Shown here in pieces: positions 4,056 to 17,485 of a DNA stretch of 18,213 nucleotides. The position numbers were made by a program, and so were the translations under genes. Every line of letters begins with the position of its first letter. Position 1 is the first letter of the stretch. The stretch spans positions 1 through 18,213 of the forward strand of contig JAUSAU010000109.1 of NCBI GenBank assembly GCA_030652345.1, read 5' to 3'. The notes under the pieces are model-generated. The model ran no database searches, was not told the DNA's origin, and saw nothing but the letters and a program-made list of their open reading frames with translations. This DNA comes from Coriobacteriia bacterium (lineage in GTDB: Bacteria; Actinomycetota; Coriobacteriia; Anaerosomatales; PALSA-660).

Positions 4056-5816
4056 CTAGTGAGCCCGCGGCAGCCGCAACGTGAACGTCGTGCCCTCGCC
4101 GGGCACGGAGGTGACCTCCACTGAGCCGCCGGCGCGCTCAGCGGCGTTCTTCACGAGCGCGAGCCCGAGCCCCGTCCCGCCGCTCGCGCGCGTCCGGGCG
4201 GGATCCACGCGGTAGAAGCGCTCGAATATCCTGGGAAGATGCTCGGCGGGGATGCCTACGCCGGTGTCCGTGATCTGGACGACGGTGGTCTGCTCGTCCG
4301 CCGACAGTCGCATCGTCACGCGGCCCGCGTCCGTGTATGCGATCGCGTTAGCGAGCAGGTTGTCGATAGCCACCGCCACGTCCGTCGGATCCGCCGCGGC
4401 GTAGACGTCCTGGGCAGCCACGTCGGTGTCGTCGGCCTCCAGCGTGAGTCCTGCCGCCGCCGCGGCGGCCTGATGGCCGGCGAGGGCGTTGTCGACGGCC
4501 GCGCGCAGATCGGTGATCGAGCCGGGCGAAGGAGTGCCCTCGAGGCGCGAGAGGTCGAGCAGGTCGAGGACCAGGCGGCGCAGACGGTCCGCTTCGTTCT
4601 TGATCTGAGAGACGAAGATGAGGGCCTGCTCGGTGTCACCGTCCGACGCGGCCGTGTCGGCCGAATCCGCGAGCAGTTGGATCGACGATGTGGGCGTCTT
4701 GAGCTCGTGCGAGGCGTTGGCGACGAAGTCGCGGCGTACGCGATCGAGTCGGCGCCCTTCCGTGGTGTCCTCGACGACGACCAGGGTCCGCGAGCCTGCG
4801 TCCGTCGGGTTCAGAGGGATGGCGGCGATCCGCAGATAGCGATGCTCCGGATCCGGGCCGATCTCGGTGGAGCAGGGCTCCGTGCAACCGAGGCGCTCCT
4901 CGATGGCGGCCCGCAGCGATGCCGGAAGCGCCGCCTCGGCCGGTGTCTTCCCTGCCCAGCCGCCGGCAGGCGTCTTGAACATCGCGGCGGCGCCGCTGTT
5001 CGCGACGCTGATCCGGCCGGCGTCGAAGAGGAAGACGGCGTTCTGCAGGCCGTCGAGCGCGTTGCGGAGCGTCGCCTCCTCGGCCTCGAGGCCCGTGATC
5101 GTCCTGCGCATCGTGTCGCGCAGCGTCACGAGCGCCGCACCGAGGCCTCCGAGCTCGCCACTCACCTCGGGTACCGGCGCGAGCAGATCGCCGCGCGCCA
5201 TGGCTTCAGCCGCGCTCTTCAGCCTCACCACGGGCTCCGCAGCCGAGGCGGAGAGCCGGACGCCGACGATGACGGCGGCGGCGATGGCAGCGAGGAGCAG
5301 GAGGATGCCGGACTGCCTCGCGCGACTCGCGAGCGCCTCGACGCGCGCGACGGGCTCGGAGACCCGCAGGGCCGCCGTCTGGCTCAGCACGATGGCGGGT
5401 ACCGCCACATACATCTGCGGTATCCCGAGCGTCGCTGACTGGCGTGTGTCGGATCCGACCGTGCCCGAGAGCGCCGCGACGATCTCCGGGCGCCCGCCGT
5501 GGTTCTCCATCTTGGCGGGGTCTTGAGCGCTGTCGGCGATCACCCTGCCGTCTGATGCGACCACGGTGATGCGCAGGTTCGTCCGCGCCACGAGACGCCT
5601 GACCTCCTGCGCGGGGTCCGCAGTCTGCTGTATGGCGAGCGCGGAGGCTTGTGCGATGGTCTGCAGGTGACTGCGCTGCTGCTCGACCACCACCTGCGTG
5701 ACCGGGCCGAAGAGCGACCAGGCCCACGCACCGAAGAGCACGACCACCACGAGCGCATAGCCCAGAGCGAGCCGGGCTCGATACGACGCGGTGAGTACCT
5801 TGAGGCGTCCGGTCAC
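4056..5816 (-). CDS. phoR: Phosphate-regulon sensor histidine kinase PhoR
   Basis: A membrane sensor kinase that phosphorylates PhoB when phosphate is scarce. The 586-residue protein has a first membrane segment (about 16-38), an extracytoplasmic region (about 39-168), a second membrane segment (about 169-189), HAMP (about 190-242), a PAS domain (about 250-355), the H-box FVANASHELKTP with phospho-acceptor H370, and an ATPase domain. The ATPase domain has its N-box around DNLLAN (485-490), G1 at DTGVGIP (517-523) and G2 at GGTGLGLAL. I start it at GTG 5816 because this codon overlaps the phoB stop as GTGA, the usual coupled arrangement, and leaves the first membrane segment intact. An upstream in-frame extension would only be phoB antiframe sequence. 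The PAS domain holds an unusual C311-x3-C315 pair. The placement beside phoB and pst supports PhoR over other kinases. Confidence 0.93.
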   Translation of the reverse strand: MTGRLKVLTASYRARLALGYALVVVVLFGAWAWSLFGPVTQVVVEQQRSHLQTIAQASALAIQQTADPAQEVRRLVARTNLRITVVASDGRVIADSAQDPAKMENHGGRPEIVAALSGTVGSDTRQSATLGIPQMYVAVPAIVLSQTAALRVSEPVARVEALASRARQSGILLLLAAIAAAVIVGVRLSASAAEPVVRLKSAAEAMARGDLLAPVPEVSGELGGLGAALVTLRDTMRRTITGLEAEEATLRNALDGLQNAVFLFDAGRISVANSGAAAMFKTPAGGWAGKTPAEAALPASLRAAIEERLGCTEPCSTEIGPDPEHRYLRIAAIPLNPTDAGSRTLVVVEDTTEGRRLDRVRRDFVANASHELKTPTSSIQLLADSADTAASDGDTEQALIFVSQIKNEADRLRRLVLDLLDLSRLEGTPSPGSITDLRAAVDNALAGHQAAAAAAGLTLEADDTDVAAQDVYAAADPTDVAVAIDNLLANAIAYTDAGRVTMRLSADEQTTVVQITDTGVGIPAEHLPRIFERFYRVDPARTRASGGTGLGLALVKNAAERAGGSVEVTSVPGEGTTFTLRLPRAH

Positions 5817-6517
5817 GCCGAGCCGGTCTTCTTCTTGGCCTCGAACCGGTAGCCCACCCCGTGCACGGTCTGGACGAACGTGAAGGCCGAGACCTCTTCG
5901 ATGGCCTGACGCAAGCGGCGGATGTGCACGTCGATGGTGCGGGAGGAGGCGAGGTGGTCGTACCCCCACACCTCCTGAGCGAGTTTCTGGCGGGGCATCA
6001 ACCGGCCCGGCTCCCGCGCGAGGGCGAGGAGCAGCTGGAACTCCTTGAGGCGCAGGCGCACCGGTGTCCCGGCGACGGTCGCGCGAAGCTGAGAGGGTTC
6101 GATCGCCAGGTCTCCCGCCTCGATCGTGTCGTCCGCCTCGAGCACGGCGCGCTCCCGGACACGTCGGAGGTTGGCGCGTACGCGGGCCAGCAGCTCCTCC
6201 ATCTGGAACGGCTTGGTCAGGTAGTCGTCCGCACCCGCGTCCAGACCTCTGACCTTGTCCCGGGGTTCGCCGAGTGCGGTCACCATGATGATGGCGGTCT
6301 CCGTGTTCGTGCGCCGTATCTGGGTCGCGAACTCGAAGCCGTCGATCCCCGGCAGCATGAGGTCGAGCAGGATGAGATCGGGCGCGTTCATACGCGCCAT
6401 ATCAAGAGCGGTGACACCGTCTCCGGCTGCTCTCGTCTCGAAGCCCGCGCGACGCAGGGCGTACTCGACGGTCTGCCGGATGATCGGGTCGTCTTCGACA
6501 ATGAGGATGTCGGCCAT
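5813..6517 (-). CDS. phoB: Phosphate-regulon response regulator PhoB/PhoP (OmpR family)
   Basis: A two-component transcription factor that binds Pho boxes once phosphorylated by PhoR. The 234-residue protein has a receiver domain with acidic pocket E8-D9-D10, phospho-acceptor D52 (ILLDLMLPGIDG), T80 and K102 (YLTKPF). It is followed by an OmpR-type winged helix containing LRLKEFQLLLALAREPG and ASSRTIDVHIRRLRQAIE, ending in VQTVHGVGYRFE. The start is the ATG at 6517, preceded by GGAGGA with 8 nt spacing; an ATG 27 nt further upstream lacks a comparable site. The stop overlaps the phoR GTG by 4 nt, so the pair is translationally coupled. It is divergent from pstS across 220 bp containing a candidate Pho box, which suggests autoregulation. 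The name depends on context, since OmpR-family regulators look alike. Confidence 0.93.
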   Translation of the reverse strand: MADILIVEDDPIIRQTVEYALRRAGFETRAAGDGVTALDMARMNAPDLILLDLMLPGIDGFEFATQIRRTNTETAIIMVTALGEPRDKVRGLDAGADDYLTKPFQMEELLARVRANLRRVRERAVLEADDTIEAGDLAIEPSQLRATVAGTPVRLRLKEFQLLLALAREPGRLMPRQKLAQEVWGYDHLASSRTIDVHIRRLRQAIEEVSAFTFVQTVHGVGYRFEAKKKTGSA

Positions 6518-6594
6518 ATGAGCGTTCCTCCGAGGTGAGGGCACGGCGGGCTACGCTCGCACTGTGCACCAGAATCGCGCGCATGCAAAGACCG

Positions 6595-6611
6595 TTTAAC
6601 AAAACGATAAC
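6595..6611 (+). promoter_or_regulatory. Candidate Pho box between phoB and pstS
   Basis: TTTAAC (6595-6600) and GATAAC (6606-6611) are direct repeats on an exact 11-bp pitch, sharing TAAC. They sit in an AT-rich island inside very GC-rich DNA. The pitch matches known PhoB/PhoP operators, for example the TTAACA-N5-TTAACA type of Bacillus. The site lies 78 nt before the phoB ATG and 126 nt before the pstS GTG, so it could serve both directions. No convincing -10 was found for either gene. Confidence 0.55.
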
Positions 6612-6737
6612 CTATGGGGTGGCGTTTCTTACATCCGTGCAACCACTCGTTGCGACCCGGGGACGACTATGGTTCACGACGGGCGGGACGTTCGCAGGCC
6701 CGGGCAGAGACTACCGATGCGAGGAGTGGTTGTAGAA

Positions 6738-7616
6738 GTGAAGATGCGTAACTGGGTCACCCTTGGCGCTGTGACGGCACTTGCCGTCGGCGCTGTTGCG
6801 CTCGCGGGTTGCGGAAGCACCGCGGGTACCGGCACCACCGCCGGTGATACGTCGGCGACGCCGACGACGCCTGAGATCTCGGGTGCGGTCACGGTCGCCG
6901 GGTCGGACACGATGGTCAACATGTCGCAGGCGTGGGCCGAGGAGTTCATGAAGGCCAACCCCGGCGTCCAGATCGCCGTAAAGGGCGGCGGTTCGGGTAC
7001 CGGCATCGCGGCGCTGATCAACGGCACCGTGGACTTCGCCAATGCCTCTCGTGAGCTCAAGGACGAGGAGAAGGCCAAGCTCGCCGGCGCGGTCGAGAAC
7101 AAGGTCGCTCGCGACGGCATCGCCGTCGTCGTGAACTCGGCGAACAAGGTCGAGAACCTCACCAAGGATCAGCTCGGCAAGATCTACCGTGGCGAGGTCA
7201 CCAACTGGAAGGCCGTCGGCGGCGCCGACAAGCCGATCGTGCTCATCTCCCGCGATCCGTCATCGGGCACGTATGAGTACTTCAAGGAGGAGATCGTCGG
7301 CAAGGAGAAGAACTACGCCAAGTCGGCGAAGCTCCTTCCTTCGACCCAGGCCATCGTGGACGAGGTCAAGGCGAACGCTGACGCCATCGGCTACATCGGC
7401 GTGGGCTACGAGTCGACCGACATCAAGGTCGTCGGTCTGGAGGGCGTGAAGGCCTCCGTCGCCACCGTGCTCGACGGCACCTATCCGCTCTCCCGCGGCC
7501 TCTACATGTACAGCAATGGTGCCCCGTCTGAGGCCGGCAAGGCGTTCCTCGACTGGATCCTCTCGGCCGCCGGCCAGAAGGTCGTCACCGATCAGGGCTT
7601 CGTCCCGGTCAACTAG
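6738..7616 (+). CDS. pstS: Phosphate ABC transporter substrate-binding lipoprotein PstS
   Basis: The high-affinity phosphate-binding protein that hands phosphate to PstCA. The 292-residue protein begins with a lipoprotein signal: basic start, hydrophobic stretch, then lipobox LAGC with the lipidated Cys at about residue 25. A Thr/Gly-rich linker and the binding domain follow. Phosphate-loop motifs typical of PstS are visible: VAGSDTMVNMSQAWAEEF, KGGGSGTGIAAL, VDFANASREL and SRDPSSGTYEYFKEE. The start is set at GTG 6738 because GAGGAG at 6721-6726 lies 11 nt upstream. ATG 6744 is the alternative, 17 nt from the same site; both keep the signal peptide. It is the first gene of the pst set and is separated from pstC by a strong hairpin. 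A Pho box upstream suggests induction by PhoB. Confidence 0.96.
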   Translation: MKMRNWVTLGAVTALAVGAVALAGCGSTAGTGTTAGDTSATPTTPEISGAVTVAGSDTMVNMSQAWAEEFMKANPGVQIAVKGGGSGTGIAALINGTVDFANASRELKDEEKAKLAGAVENKVARDGIAVVVNSANKVENLTKDQLGKIYRGEVTNWKAVGGADKPIVLISRDPSSGTYEYFKEEIVGKEKNYAKSAKLLPSTQAIVDEVKANADAIGYIGVGYESTDIKVVGLEGVKASVATVLDGTYPLSRGLYMYSNGAPSEAGKAFLDWILSAAGQKVVTDQGFVPVN

Positions 7617-7619
7617 ACG

Positions 7620-7643
7620 GTACTCTGTACGAAGTACTCTGTA
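7620..7643 (+). repeat. Two 10-bp direct repeats after pstS
   Basis: GTACTCTGTA occurs at 7620-7629 and again at 7634-7643, 14 bp apart, immediately after the pstS stop and before the hairpin. The joining bases also make GTAC-GAA-GTAC, a small inverted repeat. No function is evident. Confidence 0.6.
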
Positions 7644-7649
7644 GTGGCG

Positions 7650-7684
7650 CATCCCGCCCGGCACCTCGTGTGCCGGGCGGGATG
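7650..7684 (+). terminator. Strong hairpin between pstS and pstC (attenuator or mRNA stabiliser)
   Basis: Bases 7650-7664 and 7670-7684 form a perfect 15-bp GC-rich stem around a 5-nt loop (CTCGT). The following bases, TTGCGCCGTTCG, contain no true T-run, so termination is probably partial or the hairpin protects the pstS 3' end. Such structures are common where a binding protein must be made in excess of its membrane partners. Confidence 0.75.
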
Positions 7685-7725
7685 TTGCGCCGTTCGTTGC
7701 GATGGAAAGGTCGGCAGATAGCGAG

Positions 7726-8658
7726 ATGCCCCAGACCTCATCGATGAAGCGTCGCGGGTCGGGCCGCGCGGGTACCACCCGTGCGGCCGCCGCAGTCGTC
7801 CGGATACTCATAACGGCGAGCGGTTGGATCGCGATCGCGGTCCTCACCGCCATCGCCGTCTTCCTTGCGGTCAACGCATGGCAGGCGGCGGTCAGCCCGG
7901 AGGCGGGTCTGCTCAGGATGATCACGGGTACGTCGTGGTATCCCACGAGCACCCCGCCGCTGTACGGGTTCCTGCAGTACATCATCGCCACCATCCGAGT
8001 GACCGCCGTCGCGCTGGTGATCGCAGTCCCGATCGGGATCGCGGCGGCGATCTACATCTCGGAATTCGCCGCGCGCCGCGTCAAGGAGGTCGTGAAGTCG
8101 GTCGTCGAGTTCATGGCCGCCGTACCGTCCGTCATCTATGGCCTCATGGGCGTCTACGTGGTCGGTCCGGCCGTGCGGGATGCGCTTCACCTCTCTTCGG
8201 CGCTGACCGCACTCTCCGCCGGCATCGTGCTGGCGTTCATGGCGCTGCCGACCATCATCTCGATCTCCGAGGACGCGATGCACGCCGTACCCAAAGACCT
8301 GCGGTTCGGATCGCTCGCACTCGGCAACACGAGATGGCAGACCGCGTACAAGGTGACCGTTCCCGCCGCGTCCTCCGGCATCTTCGCCTCGGTCATGCTC
8401 GGGATGGGACGCGCGATCGGTGAGACGATGGTGGTACTCATGGTCGCGGGCAACTCGATGGAGAACACCTGGTCGTTGACGACGTCGGCCCGCCCGCTGA
8501 CCGCCGTGATCGCCGGCGAGCTGGGGGAAGTCGTTCAGGGCGGACTGCACTACTCGGCGCTCTTCGTCGTCGGTCTGACCCTCTTCGTCATAACCTTCCT
8601 GATCAACCTCGGAGCCGACGTGGTACTCGAGCGCCAGCGGAAGAGGTGGCGCCGATGA
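7726..8658 (+). CDS. pstC: Phosphate ABC transporter permease PstC
   Basis: One of the two membrane subunits of the Pst phosphate importer. From this start the protein has 310 residues: a basic N-terminal tail, a long first membrane segment ([20 protein letters not shown]) and about five more segments in the permease domain. The family pattern [20 protein letters not shown] is present, as is the ATPase-contacting EAA-type loop near [39 protein letters not shown] is typical of PstC. The start is uncertain. ATG 7702 has no ribosome-binding site at all. ATG 7726 has GGAAAGG, although 15 nt away. ATG 7744 is also possible. The stop overlaps the pstA start as ATGA. Confidence 0.94.
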
Positions 8659-9527
8659 CCAGCGCCCGCTCGCGCGCACGGATCCGCGCAGCCCGCATCA
8701 CCGAGACGGTCATGAAGGGCGTGACGGGTTCCGCCGCCGCGCTCGTCGTCACCTCGGCGGTCGCACTGCTCGGCTACCTGCTCGTCCGGGGGCTCCCGTC
8801 GATCTCGTGGGAGTTCCTGACGGGCATGCCCCGGACGTTCATGACGCAGGGCGGCATCTGGCCCGCTATCGTCGGCACCTTCTGGCTGACGCTCGGCACC
8901 GCGGTGTTCGCGCTCCCGGTGGGCATCGCCGCGGGCATCTACCTGTCCGAGTACGCACCGCGCAGCCGGGGGACGCGACTGGTCCGTCTGTCGATCGCGA
9001 ACATGTCGGGCGTCCCGTCGATCGTGTATGCGCTCTTCGGCGTGGCGCTCTTCGTGTCGCTCATGGGCCTGAAGGTCTCGATCGTCGCCGGTTCCCTCAC
9101 GCTCGCGTGCCTGACGTTGCCGGTCATCATCACCGCGACCGAGGAGGCGCTTCGTCAGGTACCGCAGGACCTGCGGCAGGCGGCACTCGCTTTGGGGGCG
9201 ACGCGCTGGCGGACGATCCGCACGGTGGTCTTGCCGGCTGCCGCTCCCGGTATCGTGACCGGGTCGATCCTCGGACTGTCGCGTGCGGCGGGCGAGACGG
9301 CACCGATCCTGTTCACGGCGGCGTTCTTCATGGCCCCGTTGCCGAAGACGCCCATGGACAAGGTCATGGCGCTTCCCACCCACATCTACATCATGGCCAC
9401 CCAGCCCATGAAGCCAGCCCCGCACATCGTGTGGGGCGCCGCGCTCGTGCTCGTCGCGGGCGTCTCTATCGTCAATATCGCCGCAGCCACCTGGCGTGCG
9501 CGCGCTCGGAGAAAGGTCACCTGGTGA
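8655..9527 (+). CDS. pstA: Phosphate ABC transporter permease PstA
   Basis: The second membrane subunit of the Pst importer, 290 residues with about six hydrophobic segments. The region from [14 protein letters not shown] to [15 protein letters not shown] and then [17 protein letters not shown] is typical of PstA. The cytoplasmic coupling loop lies near [19 protein letters not shown], and [18 protein letters not shown] marks the late membrane region. The ATG at 8655 is chosen over GTG 8646 because it forms the ATGA overlap with the pstC stop and has AAGAGG (8641-8646) 8 nt upstream. It overlaps pstB by 4 nt. Confidence 0.95.
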
Positions 9528-10309
9528 GCACTAGCGCCCCCGGGAGCTTCGAACTCAAGGACGTCTCGGTCACCTACGGTACCGAGACAGCGGTGGCGGG
9601 TGTGACGATGTCGATCGACCCGCAGGCGGTCACGGCGCTCATCGGACCGTCGGGCTGCGGCAAGTCGACGCTCCTGCGCTGTCTCAACCGCATGAACGAC
9701 GAGCTCGGCGACGTCAGCGTCGGGGGGAGGATACTGCTCGACGGCGAGGACATCTACGCCCGCGAGATGGATCCTGTCGAGTTGCGCAGCAGGGTCGGCC
9801 AGGTCTTCCAGCGGCCCAACCCGTTCCCCATGTCGATCTACGACAACGTCACCTACGGGCCGCGCACACACGGCGTCCGCGGCAAGGCCGACCTCGACAG
9901 CCTCGTGGAGGAGTCGCTGCGCCGTGCTGCTCTGTGGGACGAGGTGAAGGCGCACCTGAAGAAGCACGCGTTCGAGCTCTCAGGTGGCCAGCAGCAGCGT
10001 CTCTGCATAGCCCGCGCGCTGGCAACGAAGCCCGAGGTGATGCTCATGGACGAGCCGGCGAGCGCCCTCGATCCGATCTCGACCCAGCAGATCGAGGATA
10101 CGATCGCCGAGCTCAAGAGCGACGTCACGATCGTCATCGTCACGCACAACATGCAGCAGGCCGCACGGATATCCGACCGCACCGCCTTTATGCTGCGCGA
10201 GTCGATGGATCGCCCGGCGGGACTCGTCGAGGTGGGAGACACCCGGACGTTGTTCACGTCGCCGGTGGACTCCCGCACGGAGGCCTACATCACCGGCCGG
10301 TTCGGCTAG
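9524..10309 (+). CDS. pstB: Phosphate ABC transporter ATP-binding protein PstB
   Basis: The ATPase that drives the PstCA permease, 261 residues and full length for the family. It has Walker [10 protein letters not shown] (41-49), Q-loop at Q96 within VFQRPNPFP, signature LSGGQQQR (152-159), Walker B VMLMDEP with D176 and E177, and switch H208 in VTHNMQQA. The PstB-specific LRCLNRMND and [10 protein letters not shown] stretches are present. Translation starts at GTG 9524, overlapping the pstA stop as GTGA, with GAAAGG at 9511-9516 as ribosome-binding site. A phoU gene commonly follows pstB, but none is found here; psiE comes next after a 103-bp gap. Confidence 0.97.
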
Positions 10310-10341
10310 ATCCCGGGGATCCGTCCACGGGTCGGCTGCGT

Positions 10342-10379
10342 TTCGCGCAGGCTTCACGCACGCGTAACCCTCGTTTCAC
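10342..10379 (+). promoter_or_regulatory. Four-unit Pho box array upstream of psiE
   Basis: TTCGC (10342), TTCAC (10353), GTAAC (10364) and TTCAC (10375) are spaced exactly 11 bp apart. The repeat pitch and the TTCAC/GTAAC core match actinobacterial PHO boxes (GTTCACC-like units every 11 bp) and agree with the smaller site before pstS. The array ends 21 bp before a -10 hexamer, a good position for an activator. The first unit is the weakest match. Confidence 0.65.
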
Positions 10380-10400
10380 CACGTCCGGTCGCGTGAGCCC

Positions 10401-10406
10401 TAGGCT
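10401..10406 (+). promoter_or_regulatory. -10 element for a leaderless psiE mRNA
   Basis: TAGGCT fits the TANNNT -10 pattern and is followed by 6 nt before the psiE ATG at 10413, so transcription would start at or next to the A of the start codon. No ribosome-binding site precedes this ATG. No clear -35 is present, which agrees with an activator-dependent promoter behind the Pho box array. Confidence 0.6.
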
Positions 10407-10412
10407 CGTCCC

Positions 10413-10967
10413 ATGGACACGACGGACACACACGCGCGAATCCCCGCACGCATCCCGCCCGATGCGCCGCCCCTCGACACGCCACCTGCGGGCAGGCCCG
10501 ATACCCCGGACCCTGCCGGGCCGGGCGCTTCCACCCGCAGGTGGTCGCTGTCGGGAGTTCAGGGCCTCGTCGTCTCGGCGGTCGTGGAGATACTCGTCGC
10601 ACTCGTGCTGGTCGTCCTGGTCTGGGTGGTCTTCGGCGTCGCGCGTGACGTCTGGACAGCTGTCACGACGAGCTCCATCGACGCCTTCAAGAACCTCTCG
10701 ATCGAGCTTCTCACGGTCTTTGTGTTCATCGAGCTGTTCCACTCACTCTCCGAGTACATGCGCTTCCGTCGTCTCCGCGTGACGCATCTCGTCGATGCCT
10801 CTCTGGCGTTCGTCCTGCGCGAGGTGTGGGTCGGTATGTACGGCGGCGAGATGGACTGGAAGCGGCTCCTCGCGCTGGCGGCGATGGTGCTCGTCCTCGG
10901 CGCCGTGCGGACGGCGGCGGTCATCTTCTCGCCGGGCGAGCGCGCGGCGGACGAGGCCGAGGCATGA
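10413..10967 (+). CDS. psiE: PsiE-family phosphate-starvation-inducible membrane protein
   Basis: A 184-residue protein of the PsiE family, known as phosphate-starvation inducible; its biochemical role is not established. A Pro-rich hydrophilic N-terminus (1-45) is followed by four hydrophobic segments at about 50-77, 94-115, 125-143 and 151-172. The family signature is the stretch from LSIELLTVFVFIELFHSLSEYM to VTHLVDASLAFVLREVWV, with conserved Glu and Arg residues next to the membrane. The ATG at 10413 has no ribosome-binding site but sits 6 nt behind a -10 hexamer, which suggests leaderless expression. The Pho box array upstream and its position straight after pstB put it in the PhoB regulon. 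It overlaps the next gene as ATGA, so three genes form one unit. The family call rests on motif recognition, not on a search. Confidence 0.8.
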   Translation: MDTTDTHARIPARIPPDAPPLDTPPAGRPDTPDPAGPGASTRRWSLSGVQGLVVSAVVEILVALVLVVLVWVVFGVARDVWTAVTTSSIDAFKNLSIELLTVFVFIELFHSLSEYMRFRRLRVTHLVDASLAFVLREVWVGMYGGEMDWKRLLALAAMVLVLGAVRTAAVIFSPGERAADEAEA

Positions 10968-12258: not shown

Positions 12259-13113
12259 TCACTGATCGGTCTCGACCGAGAACACTTCGTTGGCGCGCAC
12301 GAACGCGCGCATGAAGTAGCGCAGGTCGGGGATCGCGTTCTGGCTCGGGAATGCGCGCAGAGCGCTCTCCTTGGCGGTCACGTCGTCCACGCCGAGGGTG
12401 ACGCTGCGCCAGTCACGATCGTCGGTCCTCAGCGCTCGTGGAGGCCGCAGGGAGCGGCGGGGCAGGTAGGCCCACGGGAACGGATAGTGGCCCTGGTGGA
12501 TCAGGTAGGTCAGCCGGAGACGCACGGTGTCAGCTTGCTGCAATGCGCGCATCACGAACCGGTGCGCGTATGCATGGTCCGCGTGCGTCTCGCACGCGTC
12601 GGGGAAGATGACGGTCTCGGGCGCGAATCCGGCGATGGTCGCGGTGAGGTCGAGGTGCATGGCCTCCCCGGAGCAGGGGGCTCCCGGACTGAGCGCCCAG
12701 TCATACGGCACGACCGCGCTGCCGTTCCGGCCGGTGGTGACCGTGCCGGGATCCGCCCACATGGCCTCGAGCCGACCGTCCGGATAGCCGAGGCACATCA
12801 CATCGGAGGCGGGGATTCCAAGGGACTCCGCGGCGTCCTGACTCTCGCGGAACCGCATATCGCCGAGCCGGCGGTACGTGGGAGCGTCCGGGGAGAAGCG
12901 CCCGATGCGGCGCGCAGCGCGCAGGTATGCGTCGCCGGCGGTGAGCAGGACGATGCGGACGTCGGCGCCGCGCGCGCGCAGCGCGTGCATGGTGCCGCCG
13001 GCCGCGAGTGTCTCGTCATCAGGATGCGGCGCGACGATCAGGATGCGGTCGCCCAGCGAGGACGTCTCGAGGCGCCGCGCTGAGGTGGGCGTGATGACAT
13101 CTGCTGGGGGCAA
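12259..13113 (-). CDS. PIG-L family (LmbE-like) deacetylase
   Basis: A zinc-dependent N-acetyl deacetylase of the PIG-L/LmbE superfamily, which includes GlcNAc-PI, mycothiol-pathway (MshB) and bacillithiol-pathway (BshB) enzymes; the substrate here cannot be decided. The 284-residue protein has the zinc motif APHPDDE (H30, D32, D33), the helix RESQDAAESLGI, GYPDG (109-113) and the second metal motif H177-A-D-H180. It has no signal peptide, so it is probably cytoplasmic. The start is TTG at 13113: no ATG or GTG occurs in frame before the catalytic motif, and GGAG lies 8 nt upstream. It follows the pilin-like gene by 52 nt on the same strand and may share its promoter. It converges with the HAMP protein gene, 16 nt apart. 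Confidence 0.9.
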   Translation of the reverse strand: MPPADVITPTSARRLETSSLGDRILIVAPHPDDETLAAGGTMHALRARGADVRIVLLTAGDAYLRAARRIGRFSPDAPTYRRLGDMRFRESQDAAESLGIPASDVMCLGYPDGRLEAMWADPGTVTTGRNGSAVVPYDWALSPGAPCSGEAMHLDLTATIAGFAPETVIFPDACETHADHAYAHRFVMRALQQADTVRLRLTYLIHQGHYPFPWAYLPRRSLRPPRALRTDDRDWRSVTLGVDDVTAKESALRAFPSQNAIPDLRYFMRAFVRANEVFSVETDQ

Positions 13114-13165: not shown

Positions 13166-13501
13166 TCAGCGATGCCCGTGGATCGAGCAGACGACCGACT
13201 CCGTCGTTGTCCAGGAGTACGCGCCGCCGGCCGGACAGATGGGCGCCTTTGCCAGCGAGGCGGGTACGAGCTCGGTCATGAGCGCGGCGTAGTCGGCCGG
13301 GACCGGAGCATCGGGATTGCGCGACTCGAACTGCTGGTGGGCTCCCTCGATGATGCGTTCGTCGGCGAAGCAGGTCGTCCGCTGGGCGGCCTCGCGATTG
13401 GCGGTGAAGGCGATGACGGCGATCGCCGCGAGGATCGCGAGGATCAGGACGACGACCATGAGCTCGACGAGCGTGAAGCCGGCCTCCGTGCCCCCTCGCA
13501 T
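13166..13501 (-). CDS. Type IV pilin-like (prepilin) protein
   Basis: A 111-residue prepilin. The 8-residue leader MRGGTEAG is cleaved before F9, followed by the N-methylation motif FTLVE with the conserved Glu at mature position 5 and the hydrophobic helix MVVVLILAILAAIAVIAF. The C-terminal part has CFADER, then CPAGGAYSW and VVCSIHGHR. The CPxGG...C pattern resembles Gram-positive competence-type pseudopilins, where cysteines form a disulfide. The ATG at 13501 has GAGGGGG just upstream; a longer version would put arginine-rich sequence before the leader. No pilin assembly ATPase, platform protein or prepilin peptidase is in the window, so it is an orphan pilin here. A promoter is visible 44 nt upstream. 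Confidence 0.9.
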   Translation of the reverse strand: MRGGTEAGFTLVELMVVVLILAILAAIAVIAFTANREAAQRTTCFADERIIEGAHQQFESRNPDAPVPADYAALMTELVPASLAKAPICPAGGAYSWTTTESVVCSIHGHR

Positions 13502-13737: not shown

Positions 13738-14133
13738 CTACGGGGCGACCGAACCGGAACCCGGTACCCAGACGACCTTGCCGTCACCGAGGCGGTACAC
13801 GGTGCCGATGGCGGTCCCGGACCCGGATGCCTGCCCTCCGGTCGCCTTGAGGCGCTCGACCTTGTTGCCGGTCTTCGTGATGATCTCCATGTTCTTGCCG
13901 CCGGGGTCCTTCACGATGGTGAGCTTGTCCGCCGAGAGGTAGTCCTTCAGGCCGATGCTCGAGAGCGCCATGATGAGGAAGCCCACGCCGATGAGGACCG
14001 CGACGTCGAACAGGTTCCCCATCGACTCCATCGGGTCACCGTTGCGGTCGGGCAGCAGCAGGCTTCGGCGGTTCATGTACGAACGCGAGCCCGCATGGCC
14101 CCGTCGAGCTGAGAATCGGCCGTGTGCGTCCAT
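13738..14133 (-). CDS. DUF2149 protein, ExbD/TolR-like partner of the channel protein
   Basis: A 131-residue protein I recognise as DUF2149, a family of unknown function often found beside MotA/TolQ/ExbB proteins. A hydrophilic N-terminus is followed by one membrane segment (about 41-60) beginning GNLFDVAVLIGVGFLIM, then a small extracytoplasmic domain with KLTIVKDPGGKNMEII and GTVYRLGDGKVVWVPG. D43 sits at the start of the membrane helix in a context that recalls PLVDVxLVLL of ExbD/TolR, where that Asp carries protons. The topology, one helix with the domain outside, also matches ExbD. ATG 14133 lies 2 nt after the stop of the channel gene with GGAG 9 nt upstream. The DUF call is from memory of the family; the ExbD analogy is inference. 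Confidence 0.8.
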   Translation of the reverse strand: MDAHGRFSARRGHAGSRSYMNRRSLLLPDRNGDPMESMGNLFDVAVLIGVGFLIMALSSIGLKDYLSADKLTIVKDPGGKNMEIITKTGNKVERLKATGGQASGSGTAIGTVYRLGDGKVVWVPGSGSVAP

Positions 14134-14135
14134 AT

Positions 14136-14774
14136 CTAGGACTCCAGCGTCTCGAGGACGTACTCGATGTCACTGATGTCCTGCGTGTAGCGGCGCTCGC
14201 GCACGACCGACATCACGTACGCCAGGCCGCCGATGAGCAGTCCGATCACGGTGGTCGAGAACGCAACGACGAGATTCGAGGCGAGCGTCTGCACGTCACC
14301 GCGAGCCAGCGCGACGAGCGCGGGGCTGATGGGGATCAGGGTGCCCATGAGCCCGAGGATGGGGCCGATCCGGATGAACGTCCGGGTCCGCTCGAGTCGC
14401 TTGGTGATCGTGAGCTCGAGGTCGCCCAGCCGCTTCATGACGCGGATGCGGGAGAGGTCCCCGCCGGCGGCGAGCGCCGCGAAGAAGCGTGTGAAGAATC
14501 GTCCGCCCTTCATGAGGCTGAGGCGCTGGAGCGCTTCGGGCTTATTGCCGCTGCGCAGTTCGTCGCGCGCGAGCAGTGCCGCGGCCTCCATCGCGCCGAG
14601 GTCGCGCTTCCGGTACTGCCACAGTGCCTCATAGCAGAACCGTCCGGTCTCGAAGACGATGAAGACGAGTGAGATGAGCTCGATGAACAGCACCGGGTAC
14701 AGGAGCGCCGTGGCGACCGAGTAGATGATCGCATCCGGGTGGGTGAGCCAGTAGACGACGTAGTCGGTTCTCAT
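14136..14774 (-). CDS. MotA/TolQ/ExbB-type proton channel protein
   Basis: An integral membrane protein of the MotA/TolQ/ExbB family, 212 residues with three membrane segments at about 17-43, 132-156 and 167-191. There is a long cytoplasmic loop between the first two, the normal TolQ/ExbB layout. The family motif is clear: RIGPILGLMGTLIPIS (with T144), followed by LVVAFSTTVIGLLIGG (with T174/T175), the polar pore-lining positions. The C-terminal tail RERRYTQDISDIEYVLETLE is helical and cytoplasmic. AAGGAG stands 4 nt before the ATG at 14774. It follows the propeller gene by 16 nt and precedes the DUF2149 gene by 2 nt, so the three are cotranscribed. Such proteins conduct protons together with a one-helix partner and pass the energy to an extracytoplasmic protein. 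Confidence 0.88.
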   Translation of the reverse strand: MRTDYVVYWLTHPDAIIYSVATALLYPVLFIELISLVFIVFETGRFCYEALWQYRKRDLGAMEAAALLARDELRSGNKPEALQRLSLMKGGRFFTRFFAALAAGGDLSRIRVMKRLGDLELTITKRLERTRTFIRIGPILGLMGTLIPISPALVALARGDVQTLASNLVVAFSTTVIGLLIGGLAYVMSVVRERRYTQDISDIEYVLETLES

Positions 14775-14790
14775 CGATCTCCTTCATCCA

Positions 14791-16422
14791 TCAGTGGAGT
14801 GTGCCGCTCATGAGTCGCGCGAGGAGCGGGAGCAACTTCGCTCCGGGGCCCCACGCCAGTCCGCTCCCGAACACGATCGTGATCAGTCCGAGACCCGCGT
14901 ACTGGGCGGGAACCGGGACGCTGCCCGCGACCCCGAGTGTGCCTGAACCGCTCCCGCCAGCCCCGACGCCGCCGATCCTTTGCATGACCCACCCCCGCAG
15001 GATACCGTCTGCGGGCAGGGTCGCCGGGGCGGTCGACACCACGCTGCCGTCGCCGAATCCCGTGGTGTCGCCGGTCAGCGGCGAACCCGCGCCGTACAGC
15101 GTGCTCGTGGCCGCAGCCGAGGCCTGGGTCGCCGCGGCCTGCCAGACGATCGACACATCGTTGAGGACGGCTCCCTGGTCCAGAGCAGGCGACTGCTGTC
15201 TGACCCGGTACCGGATGTACGCGCCCTGAGCAGTGCTCGGGAACGAGAACGATCCGCTCGATCCGGCCGACTGCCACGCACCGCCGTCGATCGCGTACTC
15301 CAGGATCGTCGACCCGACCTCGCCCGAGGCGTTCCAGTTCAGCGCCGTGAAGCGCTTCTTCGCACCCGCCGCGGACAGGTCGAGCCGGCGCGACGTGGCC
15401 GTCCCGGAGGATGCGTAGCTGTAGACCAGCAGGCGCTTGGTGCCGTCGAGCACGAGCGTCGAACCGTCGTAGATCCGCAGTGCTGCGAGTGGTGAGGAGA
15501 CGGGTCCGTGTCCGGGCAGCATCGGTCCGGCGCCGTACGACCCCACGACGGACTTGGCGCGTGAGACCACGACGATGCGGTTGTTGCCCTTGTCGGTGAT
15601 GAGGGTGGTGCCATCGGCGAGCCGGATCGCTTCCGTGGGCCCGCTCAACTGGTTGACGCCGACGCCCTTCGTGGTCCCGTACTGCCATGTGACGGCGCCC
15701 GCGGAACTGACTTCGATGACGCGGTCGTTGCCGGAGTCGGTGATCAGCGTCGCTCCGCCGATCAGGCGGTGGGCGGCGCGTGGTGCGTTCAATCCCGTGG
15801 CGTACCGCCAGGCGACGGCGCCCGCGCTCGTGATCTCGCTGACGCGGTTCGCGCCCGGTTCGACGATCAGCGTGTTCCCGTTCGTCAGGCGGTGAGCCGA
15901 TGCCGGATCGCTGAGCTGACCGAGCCCGGTTCCCTTGATGCCGGTACCGTGCTGCCAGACGGTCGCCTTCGCGTTTGTCACTTCCAGTACGCGGAAGCCG
16001 CCACGGTCGACGATCAGGGTGTTGCCGCTCGCCAGCCTCTCCGCGTCGGACGGGGCCACCAGAGCGACGTCGTCGACGGAGGAGTACACCCAGCGCTTGA
16101 CCCCGGCACGGGTGAGATCGAAGACGGAGCGGGAGGCACCGTCGGCGATGAGCACGGCGTCGTTTCCGAGAGCCCGTATCGATCGGGGATCGCCTCCGAG
16201 CGAGTACTCCCAGTTGAGCCGATACGGCAGCACGAGGGACTGATCCGCGGTCGTACCGGTCAGGACCAGCCCGCTGCGCGACTCGAGACTGAACGGTCGC
16301 CCGCCCGTGCCCTCGGTCCAGACGGCGGCCCGGGCGAGCGCGGGTAGCGCGAGGAACAGCGCCAGGCCCAGCGCGAATGCTGCGCTCGGCCACAGGGACT
16401 GTGTTCGCGTGTCGGTGGGCAT
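14791..16422 (-). CDS. Secreted beta-propeller protein with C-terminal jelly-roll-like domain and possible membrane anchor
   Basis: The function is unknown. The 543-residue protein has a signal peptide (hydrophobic 13-30, cleavage after ALARA at 32). Six repeats start near 82, 128, 177, 218, 265 and 315, with the pattern RL-x-GNTLI(V/T)D-x-G-NRV-x-E(V/I) followed by V-x-W-x-YGT. This is the NHL/PQQ/arylsulfotransferase-like propeller type, and six repeats suit a six-bladed ring. A beta domain follows (about 345-428, LEYAIDGGAWQSAG to IRYRVRQQSP), then an Ala/Ser/Gly-rich linker and a last hydrophobic stretch (about 508-535) that may anchor it. The start is uncertain: ATG 16422 gives the cleanest signal peptide, while ATG 16455 and 16476 are in frame but have no better ribosome-binding site. 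It precedes the channel gene by 16 nt. No arylsulfotransferase catalytic site is evident. Confidence 0.82.
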   Translation of the reverse strand: MPTDTRTQSLWPSAAFALGLALFLALPALARAAVWTEGTGGRPFSLESRSGLVLTGTTADQSLVLPYRLNWEYSLGGDPRSIRALGNDAVLIADGASRSVFDLTRAGVKRWVYSSVDDVALVAPSDAERLASGNTLIVDRGGFRVLEVTNAKATVWQHGTGIKGTGLGQLSDPASAHRLTNGNTLIVEPGANRVSEITSAGAVAWRYATGLNAPRAAHRLIGGATLITDSGNDRVIEVSSAGAVTWQYGTTKGVGVNQLSGPTEAIRLADGTTLITDKGNNRIVVVSRAKSVVGSYGAGPMLPGHGPVSSPLAALRIYDGSTLVLDGTKRLLVYSYASSGTATSRRLDLSAAGAKKRFTALNWNASGEVGSTILEYAIDGGAWQSAGSSGSFSFPSTAQGAYIRYRVRQQSPALDQGAVLNDVSIVWQAAATQASAAATSTLYGAGSPLTGDTTGFGDGSVVSTAPATLPADGILRGWVMQRIGGVGAGGSGSGTLGVAGSVPVPAQYAGLGLITIVFGSGLAWGPGAKLLPLLARLMSGTLH

Positions 16423-16483: not shown

Positions 16484-17485
16484 TCAGCCGTCGAGGCGCA
16501 GTGCATCGCCGGTGTGGTCGGTCTCGTAGCCGCGGATCTCACGGACGCCGGTACGGAATGCCCGCGTGGCGAGGCGATCCAGGAACGCGGCGAGTGCAGG
16601 ATCTTCGAGTCGGTCGGCGTCGAAGATCAAATCATACCGTTCGTGGAAGAGGGTGACGAAACCGAGTCCCGATTCCTCGGCTGCGGCCCTGATGCCCAGG
16701 CCCGCATCCGCCTCGCCCGCGGCGATGGCGAGCGCCGCCTCGGTGTGCGTGCGGAACGGCCGGTCGTATCCGACGATGGCGGTGGGGTCGATACCGAGAT
16801 CATGCAGCTTCCGGTCCAGCCAGACGCGGGTACCCGAACCCGGATTGCGGTTGGCCAGGACCAGACCGGGCCGGGCGAGGTCCTCCACTCCCCGGATCTT
16901 GAGTGGGTTGCCCGGAGCGGTCATCAGCCCCTGTTCCCGGTGAGCCAGGGTGAGGCCCGCCATCCGGCGGTCCGGGAAGAGGTGGCGCAGGTAGGGGATG
17001 TTGTACTCGTCCGCCTCGGCGTCGAAGAGGTGGCAGCCCGCGATATCAGCAAGCCCCTGGCGCAGGGCGACCAGGCCGTCGAGACTGCCGATCGCCGCCG
17101 GCACGATCTCGCGGTGTCCGTCGGTCACGTTGGCATTCGCCACGAGCAGTTCGAGAGCGAAGTCGTGGCTGCCCAGCACCATGAGCGGCGCCCGGTCGCC
17201 GGTGTCCGGGCCGATGAGGAGATGGATCGCGTACGCCCCCGCGCTCGCCCGGTAGAACTTCTCCGTGTAGTTGCGCACCTTTTGCTCGCCGGCCGGCTCA
17301 GCCAGGCCCACTGCTTCCAGCCGCTTGAGGTGATGGCGGATCCAGGCGGGATGTTTGTCGAACTCGCGCCCGAGGCGGGAGAGCGTCGATGGTCCGCACA
17401 TGAGGCGGCGCAGGATCGCACGCCGATGCTCGTCAGCGAGCACCGAGAGTTGATCGTGCCGGTCGATCGTCCCGACGGTGTCCAT
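16484..17485 (-). CDS. Winged-helix regulator fused to a periplasmic-binding-protein-like ligand domain
   Basis: A cytoplasmic transcription factor of 333 residues. Residues about 10-85 form an ArsR-like winged helix (LADEHRRAILRRLMCGPSTL, then PAWIRHHLKRLEAVGLAEPAG). Residues about 100-315 form a PBP-like domain of the kind found with molybdate/tungstate-type sensors. Its motifs are LMVLGSHDFALELL, GCHLFDAEADEYNIPYL, ANRNPGSGTRVWLDRKL and GEADAGLGIRAAAEESGL. It lacks a signal peptide, so it senses an intracellular ligand; an oxyanion is a guess from the family. The ATG at 17485 has AAGG 8 nt upstream, though the same bases belong to a TAAGGT hexamer that could be a leaderless -10. It is the first gene of the propeller/channel operon, 61 nt before the propeller ATG, and divergent from the cupredoxin lipoprotein, so it may control both. 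Confidence 0.85.
   Translation of the reverse strand: MDTVGTIDRHDQLSVLADEHRRAILRRLMCGPSTLSRLGREFDKHPAWIRHHLKRLEAVGLAEPAGEQKVRNYTEKFYRASAGAYAIHLLIGPDTGDRAPLMVLGSHDFALELLVANANVTDGHREIVPAAIGSLDGLVALRQGLADIAGCHLFDAEADEYNIPYLRHLFPDRRMAGLTLAHREQGLMTAPGNPLKIRGVEDLARPGLVLANRNPGSGTRVWLDRKLHDLGIDPTAIVGYDRPFRTHTEAALAIAAGEADAGLGIRAAAEESGLGFVTLFHERYDLIFDADRLEDPALAAFLDRLATRAFRTGVREIRGYETDHTGDALRLDG

Follow-up and report, generated by a model that had tools for sequence, protein, structure and literature searches.

The window analysed here is the whole of an 18,213-nucleotide (nt) stretch of contig JAUSAU010000109.1 from a Coriobacteriia bacterium. It contains three adjoining genes encoding a β-propeller protein, a channel protein of the MotA/TolQ/ExbB type and a DUF2149 protein (Table 1). 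As an earlier sequence-only reading of this DNA had stated, the gaps between these genes are 16 nt (propeller–channel) and 2 nt (channel–DUF2149), and the open reading frames (ORFs) place all three on the minus strand. The start of the propeller gene is uncertain; its frame is open to 16542 and the gene caller preferred 16476. A further gene on the same strand, located 61 nt upstream of the propeller gene and missed by that reading, encodes a protein with helix-turn-helix (HTH) and PBP_like domains, which is the probable regulator of the cluster. Among the genome loci listed, those closest to the window are actinobacterial, several of them from Coriobacteriia.

Table 1 Genes, motifs and key residues of the propeller–channel–DUF2149 cluster in the window
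Feature	Position	Strand	Description	Basis
HTH and PBP_like regulator gene	16484-17485	minus	probable regulator	PF12727 (220 bits), HTH_20
Propeller gene	16422-14791	minus	543 residues	ORF and translation
RGWVM motif	14983..14997	minus	propeller residues 476-480, between linker and tail	
C-terminal hydrophobic segment	14839..14916	minus	propeller residues ~503-528, presumed membrane helix	
[YF]xxG tail motif	14860..14871	minus	propeller F518-G521	
MotA/TolQ/ExbB channel gene	14774-14136	minus	212 residues, three hydrophobic segments	PF01618
Channel T145	14340..14342	minus	aligned with ExbB T148	
Channel T175	14250..14252	minus	aligned with ExbB T181	
DUF2149 gene	14133-13738	minus	131 residues, presumed B subunit	PF09919
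DUF2149 D43	14005..14007	minus	start of helix, may correspond to the aspartate of ExbD/TolR	

Conservation of the gene set

The gene set is real and conserved. In a sample of 246 genomes from a single actinobacterial class (that of genome G002), DUF2149 occurs in 24, with scores of at least 66 bits in 17 genomes and of 50 bits or less in seven. Matches to the propeller profile (E value 1e-30 or better) are present in 13 of these genomes, every one of which belongs to the 17 with a strong DUF2149 score. In three of the remaining four (G004, G006, and G134) a contig end truncates the locus, the last two still retaining the C-terminus of the propeller, and the fourth is G009. The corresponding locus of G009 (L143, ~6714-8395) carries a regulator gene and a partial gene of the C8 type, a group that includes CWB2 surface proteins, directly followed by a shortened DUF2149 gene (82 residues). 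It contains neither a propeller nor a channel gene, and represents either a cluster that has decayed or an error in the assembly.

The 13 genomes hold 16 propeller matches, 14 of which adjoin the channel and DUF2149 genes, always in the order propeller–MotA–DUF2149. In these 14 clusters from 13 other genomes, the gap between the propeller and channel genes ranges from -8 to 33 nt by gene calls. The contig-cut genomes G001, G004, G006, and G134 are omitted from the whole-cluster counts, and lone propellers may be undercounted, as no more than five candidates were scored in most listed genomes. Among the best 80 of 359 relatives, a MotA match stands beside DUF2149 in 79 loci, the exception being L009 within G009. 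The sequence-only reading had proposed a search for the three families together, in kept order, across other genomes. The 14 clusters supply that order, and the genomic half of its refutation test is thereby passed. Neither the Fisher value of 1.7e-18, which treats related genomes as independent, nor the distance correlations among the three proteins (0.84, 0.76, and 0.65), in which shared ancestry is uncontrolled, was used as a probability or as support.

The channel protein and DUF2149 as a putative motor pair

The channel protein matches MotA_ExbB (PF01618) with 39.9 bits against a cut-off of 22.9, and the profile of its family finds ExbB (5sv0) at an E value of 1.4e-4. In the profile alignment, residues P138, T145, T175, and R194 fall on P141, T148, T181, and R200 of ExbB, and all four are invariant across 24 sequences drawn from three kinds of cluster. 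The available text of PMC12215075 describes the proton-path residues of ExbB as conserved, with Arg200 bonded to ExbD, and places the matching threonines of TolQ close to the essential aspartate of TolR. The channel assignment of the sequence-only reading is thus upheld by both the family match and the retained proton-path residues.

The DUF2149 protein matches PF09919 (84.8 bits against a cut-off of 27.1) and gives no match to PF02472, the ExbD/TolR family. As in ExbD and TolR, an aspartate stands where the one membrane helix begins: D43 lies at the start of the single helix modelled by AlphaFold2 (residues 35-59). This position is an aspartate in 115 of 118 DUF2149 rows (the others being one valine, one asparagine, and one gap), the rows partly overlapping and including the window twice. 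In the best local hhalign match between DUF2149 and ExbD, which is not significant, aspartate is paired with aspartate. DUF2149 may work like ExbD.

Searches of 18 related genomes found neither ExbD (PF02472; control found in five of 14) nor Omp85 (PF01103; control in seven of 14), TonB, TolA, and TonB-dependent receptors lying outside the search; many of the assemblies are metagenomic with completeness not shown, and the absences are only as good as these assemblies. In 17 of the 18 genomes the cluster copy is the sole PF01618 match (two copies in G075), and G009 has none. All five DUF2149 genomes of other lineages included in the ExbD search (G010-G014) possess ExbD genes. The hosts of the cluster seem to have a single membrane. 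The lack of detected Omp85 and ExbD in the relatives supports the earlier remark that nothing in the window suggests an outer membrane. According to a review on 5:2 motors (PMC9389320), it is still to be tested if Ton-type orthologs function in thick-walled Gram-positive bacteria without ExbD, and in what way. The present lineage, in which neither ExbD nor Omp85 was detected and the sole ExbB-type gene is firmly linked to those of DUF2149 and a surface protein, makes this question testable.

Ton remnants in monoderms have been called likely non-functional (excerpts of PMC12204202), and G009 retains only a DUF2149 remnant; the pair could accordingly be an ExbBD-like set, left over or acquired, that is now without function. 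We consider this very improbable, since the proton-path residues are invariant, genes and order are intact in 14 clusters, and a strong PBP_like regulator gene (at least 177 bits; 14 occurrences in 13 genomes) stands near the cluster on the same contig in ten of the 13 genomes.

The propeller protein and its C-terminal tail

The propeller protein is composed of an N-terminal signal or anchor, a propeller, a β-sandwich, a linker, and a hydrophobic C-terminal tail. Its AlphaFold2 model (predicted local distance difference test, pLDDT, 79; predicted template modelling score, pTM, 0.69) contains a confident β-propeller at residues ~33-345, with most blocks above 90. The top Foldseek matches are NHL propellers, 7qrx reaching a template modelling score (TM-score) of 0.83 by target length, and model and matches together identify an NHL-type propeller fold. 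NHL propellers are six-bladed. Behind the propeller lie a β-sandwich domain (residues ~350-430), a disordered Gly-rich linker (434-504), and a C-terminal helix (505-542), all three overlooked by the sequence-only reading. The protein matches no Pfam family at an E value of 0.1, has 247 homologs among the scored candidates, and weakly matches a family of PEP-CTERM propellers (21.2 bits against a cut-off of 350).

In 14 of 15 propellers (the exception is L002), the strongest hydrophobic window past the first 60 residues starts 25-50 residues before the C-terminus, and 6-31 residues trail it. The motif [YF]xxG is present in 31 of 34 tails, whereas 1000 core shuffles gave it in 6.6 tails on average and in 13 at most; the count omits two tails truncated by contig ends as well as P0064, which duplicates L007, and becomes 33 of 37 with those three. 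At the junction of linker and tail, G477 of the RGWVM motif is invariant in a 21-row alignment, a similar motif being found in most, not all, tails. The propeller, described earlier as secreted, is probably tail-anchored rather than freely secreted. The conservation of [YF]xxG points to a tail that would make a specific contact more than serve as a mere anchor.

The propeller may instead be a surface-displayed protein of an ordinary kind, encoded in one operon with the channel pair but not touching it, and its tail may simply anchor the protein or act as a sorting signal. Such propellers are common, and both the weak PEP-CTERM match and the modest hydrophobicity of the tail agree with this view, yet we find it improbable: a conserved motif lies inside the tail segment, the gene order is constant, and the 6-31 residues following the hydrophobic window are more than sortase-type tails usually have.

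It appears somewhat probable that the cluster encodes an ExbBD-type motor with DUF2149 as its B subunit, working a tail-anchored propeller module. The ExbB-like protein would form a ring, and DUF2149 would take the place of ExbD, giving an ion-driven motor of the ExbBD/TolQR/MotAB type. The propeller protein would be the moved part, its C-terminal segment with [YF]xxG situated in or beside the motor, while the propeller and β-sandwich would project outside the membrane on the flexible Gly-rich linker. Ion flow via T145, T175, and D43 would drive cyclic movement of this surface module, which probably serves nutrient uptake; the likeliest guess for the cargo is a molybdenum- or tungsten-related (Mo/W) nutrient under the PBP_like regulator. 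The observations behind this reading are the gene order, the co-occurrence, the conserved residues, and the lack of any ExbD or further MotA/ExbB match in the relatives; we infer the stoichiometry, ion flow, docking, movement, and cargo of the motor.

Several observations weigh against this motor reading. G009 has a DUF2149 remnant and no channel gene, and two propeller matches (G095:C68 and the fragment G003:C88) lie away from the pair. The C-terminal helix of the propeller is modelled with low confidence, as is the small strand-rich domain of DUF2149 outside its helix (mean pLDDT of the DUF2149 model, 59). The tail hydropathy is modest: 13 of 15 propellers pass a cut-off of 1.3 compared with 14 of 131 non-polytopic background proteins, and seven of 15 compared with five of 131 pass a cut-off of 1.6, the tail in the window having a weak value of 1.35. 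A first view of the tail as a clear membrane helix was dropped on account of the stricter cut-off, and the tail assignment therefore rests on position and on the [YF]xxG motif. Comparison of the DUF2149 and ExbD profiles gave an hhalign probability of 1.25%, compared with 1.88% for a control; with the match to PF09919 rather than PF02472, this is the reason why DUF2149 is not filed as ExbD. Moreover, the cluster of L128 stands beside a glycine-betaine-type gene, not a Mo/W gene. ModA, above its cut-off, is found near the cluster of L127, and TupA-like genes, which lie below the curated cut-off, near the clusters of L002, L130, and L134; the Mo/W link is therefore suggestive only.

Related motor pairs and the nutrient setting

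The sequence-only reading had offered the system as a candidate undescribed one. The MotA–DUF2149 pair itself is already described, being related to HmuU–HmuV from the haem operon of Bacteroidota; the role given to it there is an assumption. In hmuYRSTUV, a MotA/ExbB-type gene is directly followed by DUF2149, with the large extracytoplasmic HmuS encoded upstream (excerpts of PMC12583661). The window likewise has adjoining HmuU-type (MotA/ExbB) and HmuV-type (DUF2149) genes, whereas HmuS, a CobN-type de-chelatase, is replaced by the propeller, and no CobN match was found among the window proteins tested. The two systems also differ in that the Hmu hosts are diderms with a TonB-dependent HmuR and separate ExbD genes. 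In the loci that come mostly from Bacteroidota, HmuT with several hydrophobic segments lies upstream of the pair. Those of them examined with their upstream DNA intact have a long ORF before it that ends in a hydrophobic stretch. When the last long ORF on the plus strand was taken from every locus, such an end was present in 55 of 62, CobN identity not being checked individually. The excerpts of PMC12583661 report predicted helices at both ends of HmuS. Set beside an anchored upstream protein of this Hmu type, the propeller tail has a conserved motif and weak hydrophobicity.

The pair also follows other surface proteins. In L138-L141 it stands after Ig-like proteins with hydrophobic C-termini (Big_2 in the three of the four that were scanned), and in L170 after a PKD-domain protein; Peripla_BP_2 genes are present at L139 and L142. 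L168, from another actinobacterium, has the order CobN–DUF2162–MotA–DUF2149. It shares with the window the pair and an upstream protein with a hydrophobic C-terminus, but CobN replaces the propeller and DUF2162 is a small membrane protein. These clusters may form a wider family, in which the motor would carry an exchangeable ectodomain (propeller, Ig-like, or CobN/HmuS) in a setting of nutrient or cofactor uptake.

With ExbBD–TonB and TolQR–TolA, the pair shares a three-segment channel with two threonines and an arginine, and a one-helix partner with an aspartate. It differs in that DUF2149 replaces ExbD/TolR with no significant sequence match, the relatives have no detected Omp85, and the presumed moved part is anchored at its C-terminus rather than at its N-terminus. 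According to the excerpts of PMC12204202, vWA force transducers similarly combine a tightly linked TolQ-type gene with a membrane-tethered extracytoplasmic protein, one family lacking TolR/ExbD. They carry instead a vWA domain and are described mainly in Proteobacteria, Verrucomicrobia, and the Planctomycetes–Verrucomicrobia–Chlamydiae (PVC) group, and DUF2149 is not mentioned in these excerpts. The same source predicts further motor-driven transducers and sought B subunits by PF02472, a search that DUF2149 would escape. No MotA–DUF2149 pair in monoderms or with a propeller appears in the titles and abstract openings of the literature searched, and DUF2149 does not occur in PMC12505986. In that literature, the use of such motors in apparently single-membrane bacteria, as in the propeller–motor pairing, is without an account. 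We regard the variant of the ExbBD/TolQR/MotAB kind as new and related to HmuUV, its mechanism being what we infer; the sequence-only interpretation as a whole is partly supported.

For gut Bacteroidota, HmuU and HmuV have been depicted as the power source of the outer-membrane receptor (excerpts of PMC12583661) and are said to help energise HmuR, HmuT being an inner-membrane protein of unclear function (same excerpts and those of PMC13227078). That relatives of the pair occur in bacteria showing no sign of an outer membrane suggests a job for HmuU and HmuV at the inner membrane. More tentatively, and as a possibility we hold with less confidence than the motor itself, MotA–DUF2149 may be a separate class of ion-driven motor needing no outer membrane. 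It would work exchangeable tail-anchored ectodomains so that nutrients or cofactors are taken up through one membrane and a wall. HmuUV would then be its diderm relative at the inner membrane, not a second ExbBD for the TonB receptor.

Two further proteins, C5 (~140 residues) and the small polytopic C6, are encoded in 12 of 15 clusters; the three without them are the window, L007, and one of the two G075 copies. C6 weakly resembles ECF-S/YkoE proteins of the energy-coupling factor (ECF) type (PF07155, E value 2e-4; PF09819, 3.5e-4; YkoE 5edl, 0.43). The motor might therefore energise C6 as a small membrane importer, not the propeller, with the propeller or HmuS acting as a binding lid that hands over substrate. 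C6 stands near the pair as do HmuT (in the haem cluster, upstream of HmuU) and DUF2162 (in L168), and HmuTUV is presumed to carry haem across the inner membrane (excerpts of PMC13227078). This arrangement is rather unlikely: three clusters lack C6, a search for it found none in five of 18 genomes, G007 included, and no relationship between C6, HmuT, and DUF2162 could be detected. Identification of C6 as HmuT (hhalign probability 0.53%) and of DUF2162 as HmuT or C6 (0.83% and 0.14%) was unsupported.

C5 has 114 homologs, none with a listed Pfam domain and all named no better than hypothetical protein. Its best PDB match is a pilin (E value 0.026, N-terminus only); a sulfite-oxidase fold received hints only (Oxidored_molyb, E value 0.07), and similarity to the Ig-like partner C17 was weak (E value 0.0016, probability 16%). 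C7, a TiaS-like protein, occurs at 11 of the 13 loci of the relatives, in one case as a short gene call. A small TiaS-like protein, with weak matches to TiaS and methanogenesis marker 11, lies beside the motor pair in L002 (8338-9090) and its relatives and in L142 (8278-9288), and thus accompanies the pair in two different partner types. L130 of G075 (6614-18736) contains two propeller–MotA–DUF2149 sets ~8 kb apart with a TupA-like ATP-binding cassette (ABC) set between them, C5, C6, and C7 being present at only one.

In the window, a lone type IV pilin-like gene (13166-13501, minus strand; N_methyl and GspG/ComGC-like matches) lies just downstream of the DUF2149 gene. A PIG-L-type deacetylase gene is found near the cluster both in the window (12259-13113, minus strand) and in L006 (1961-3406). 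In addition, positions 4056-10967 of the window resemble a phosphate regulon, comprising a sensor kinase and response regulator, a PstSCAB-like ABC set, and a PsiE protein, the last recognised by family match and the remaining genes judged from their translations.

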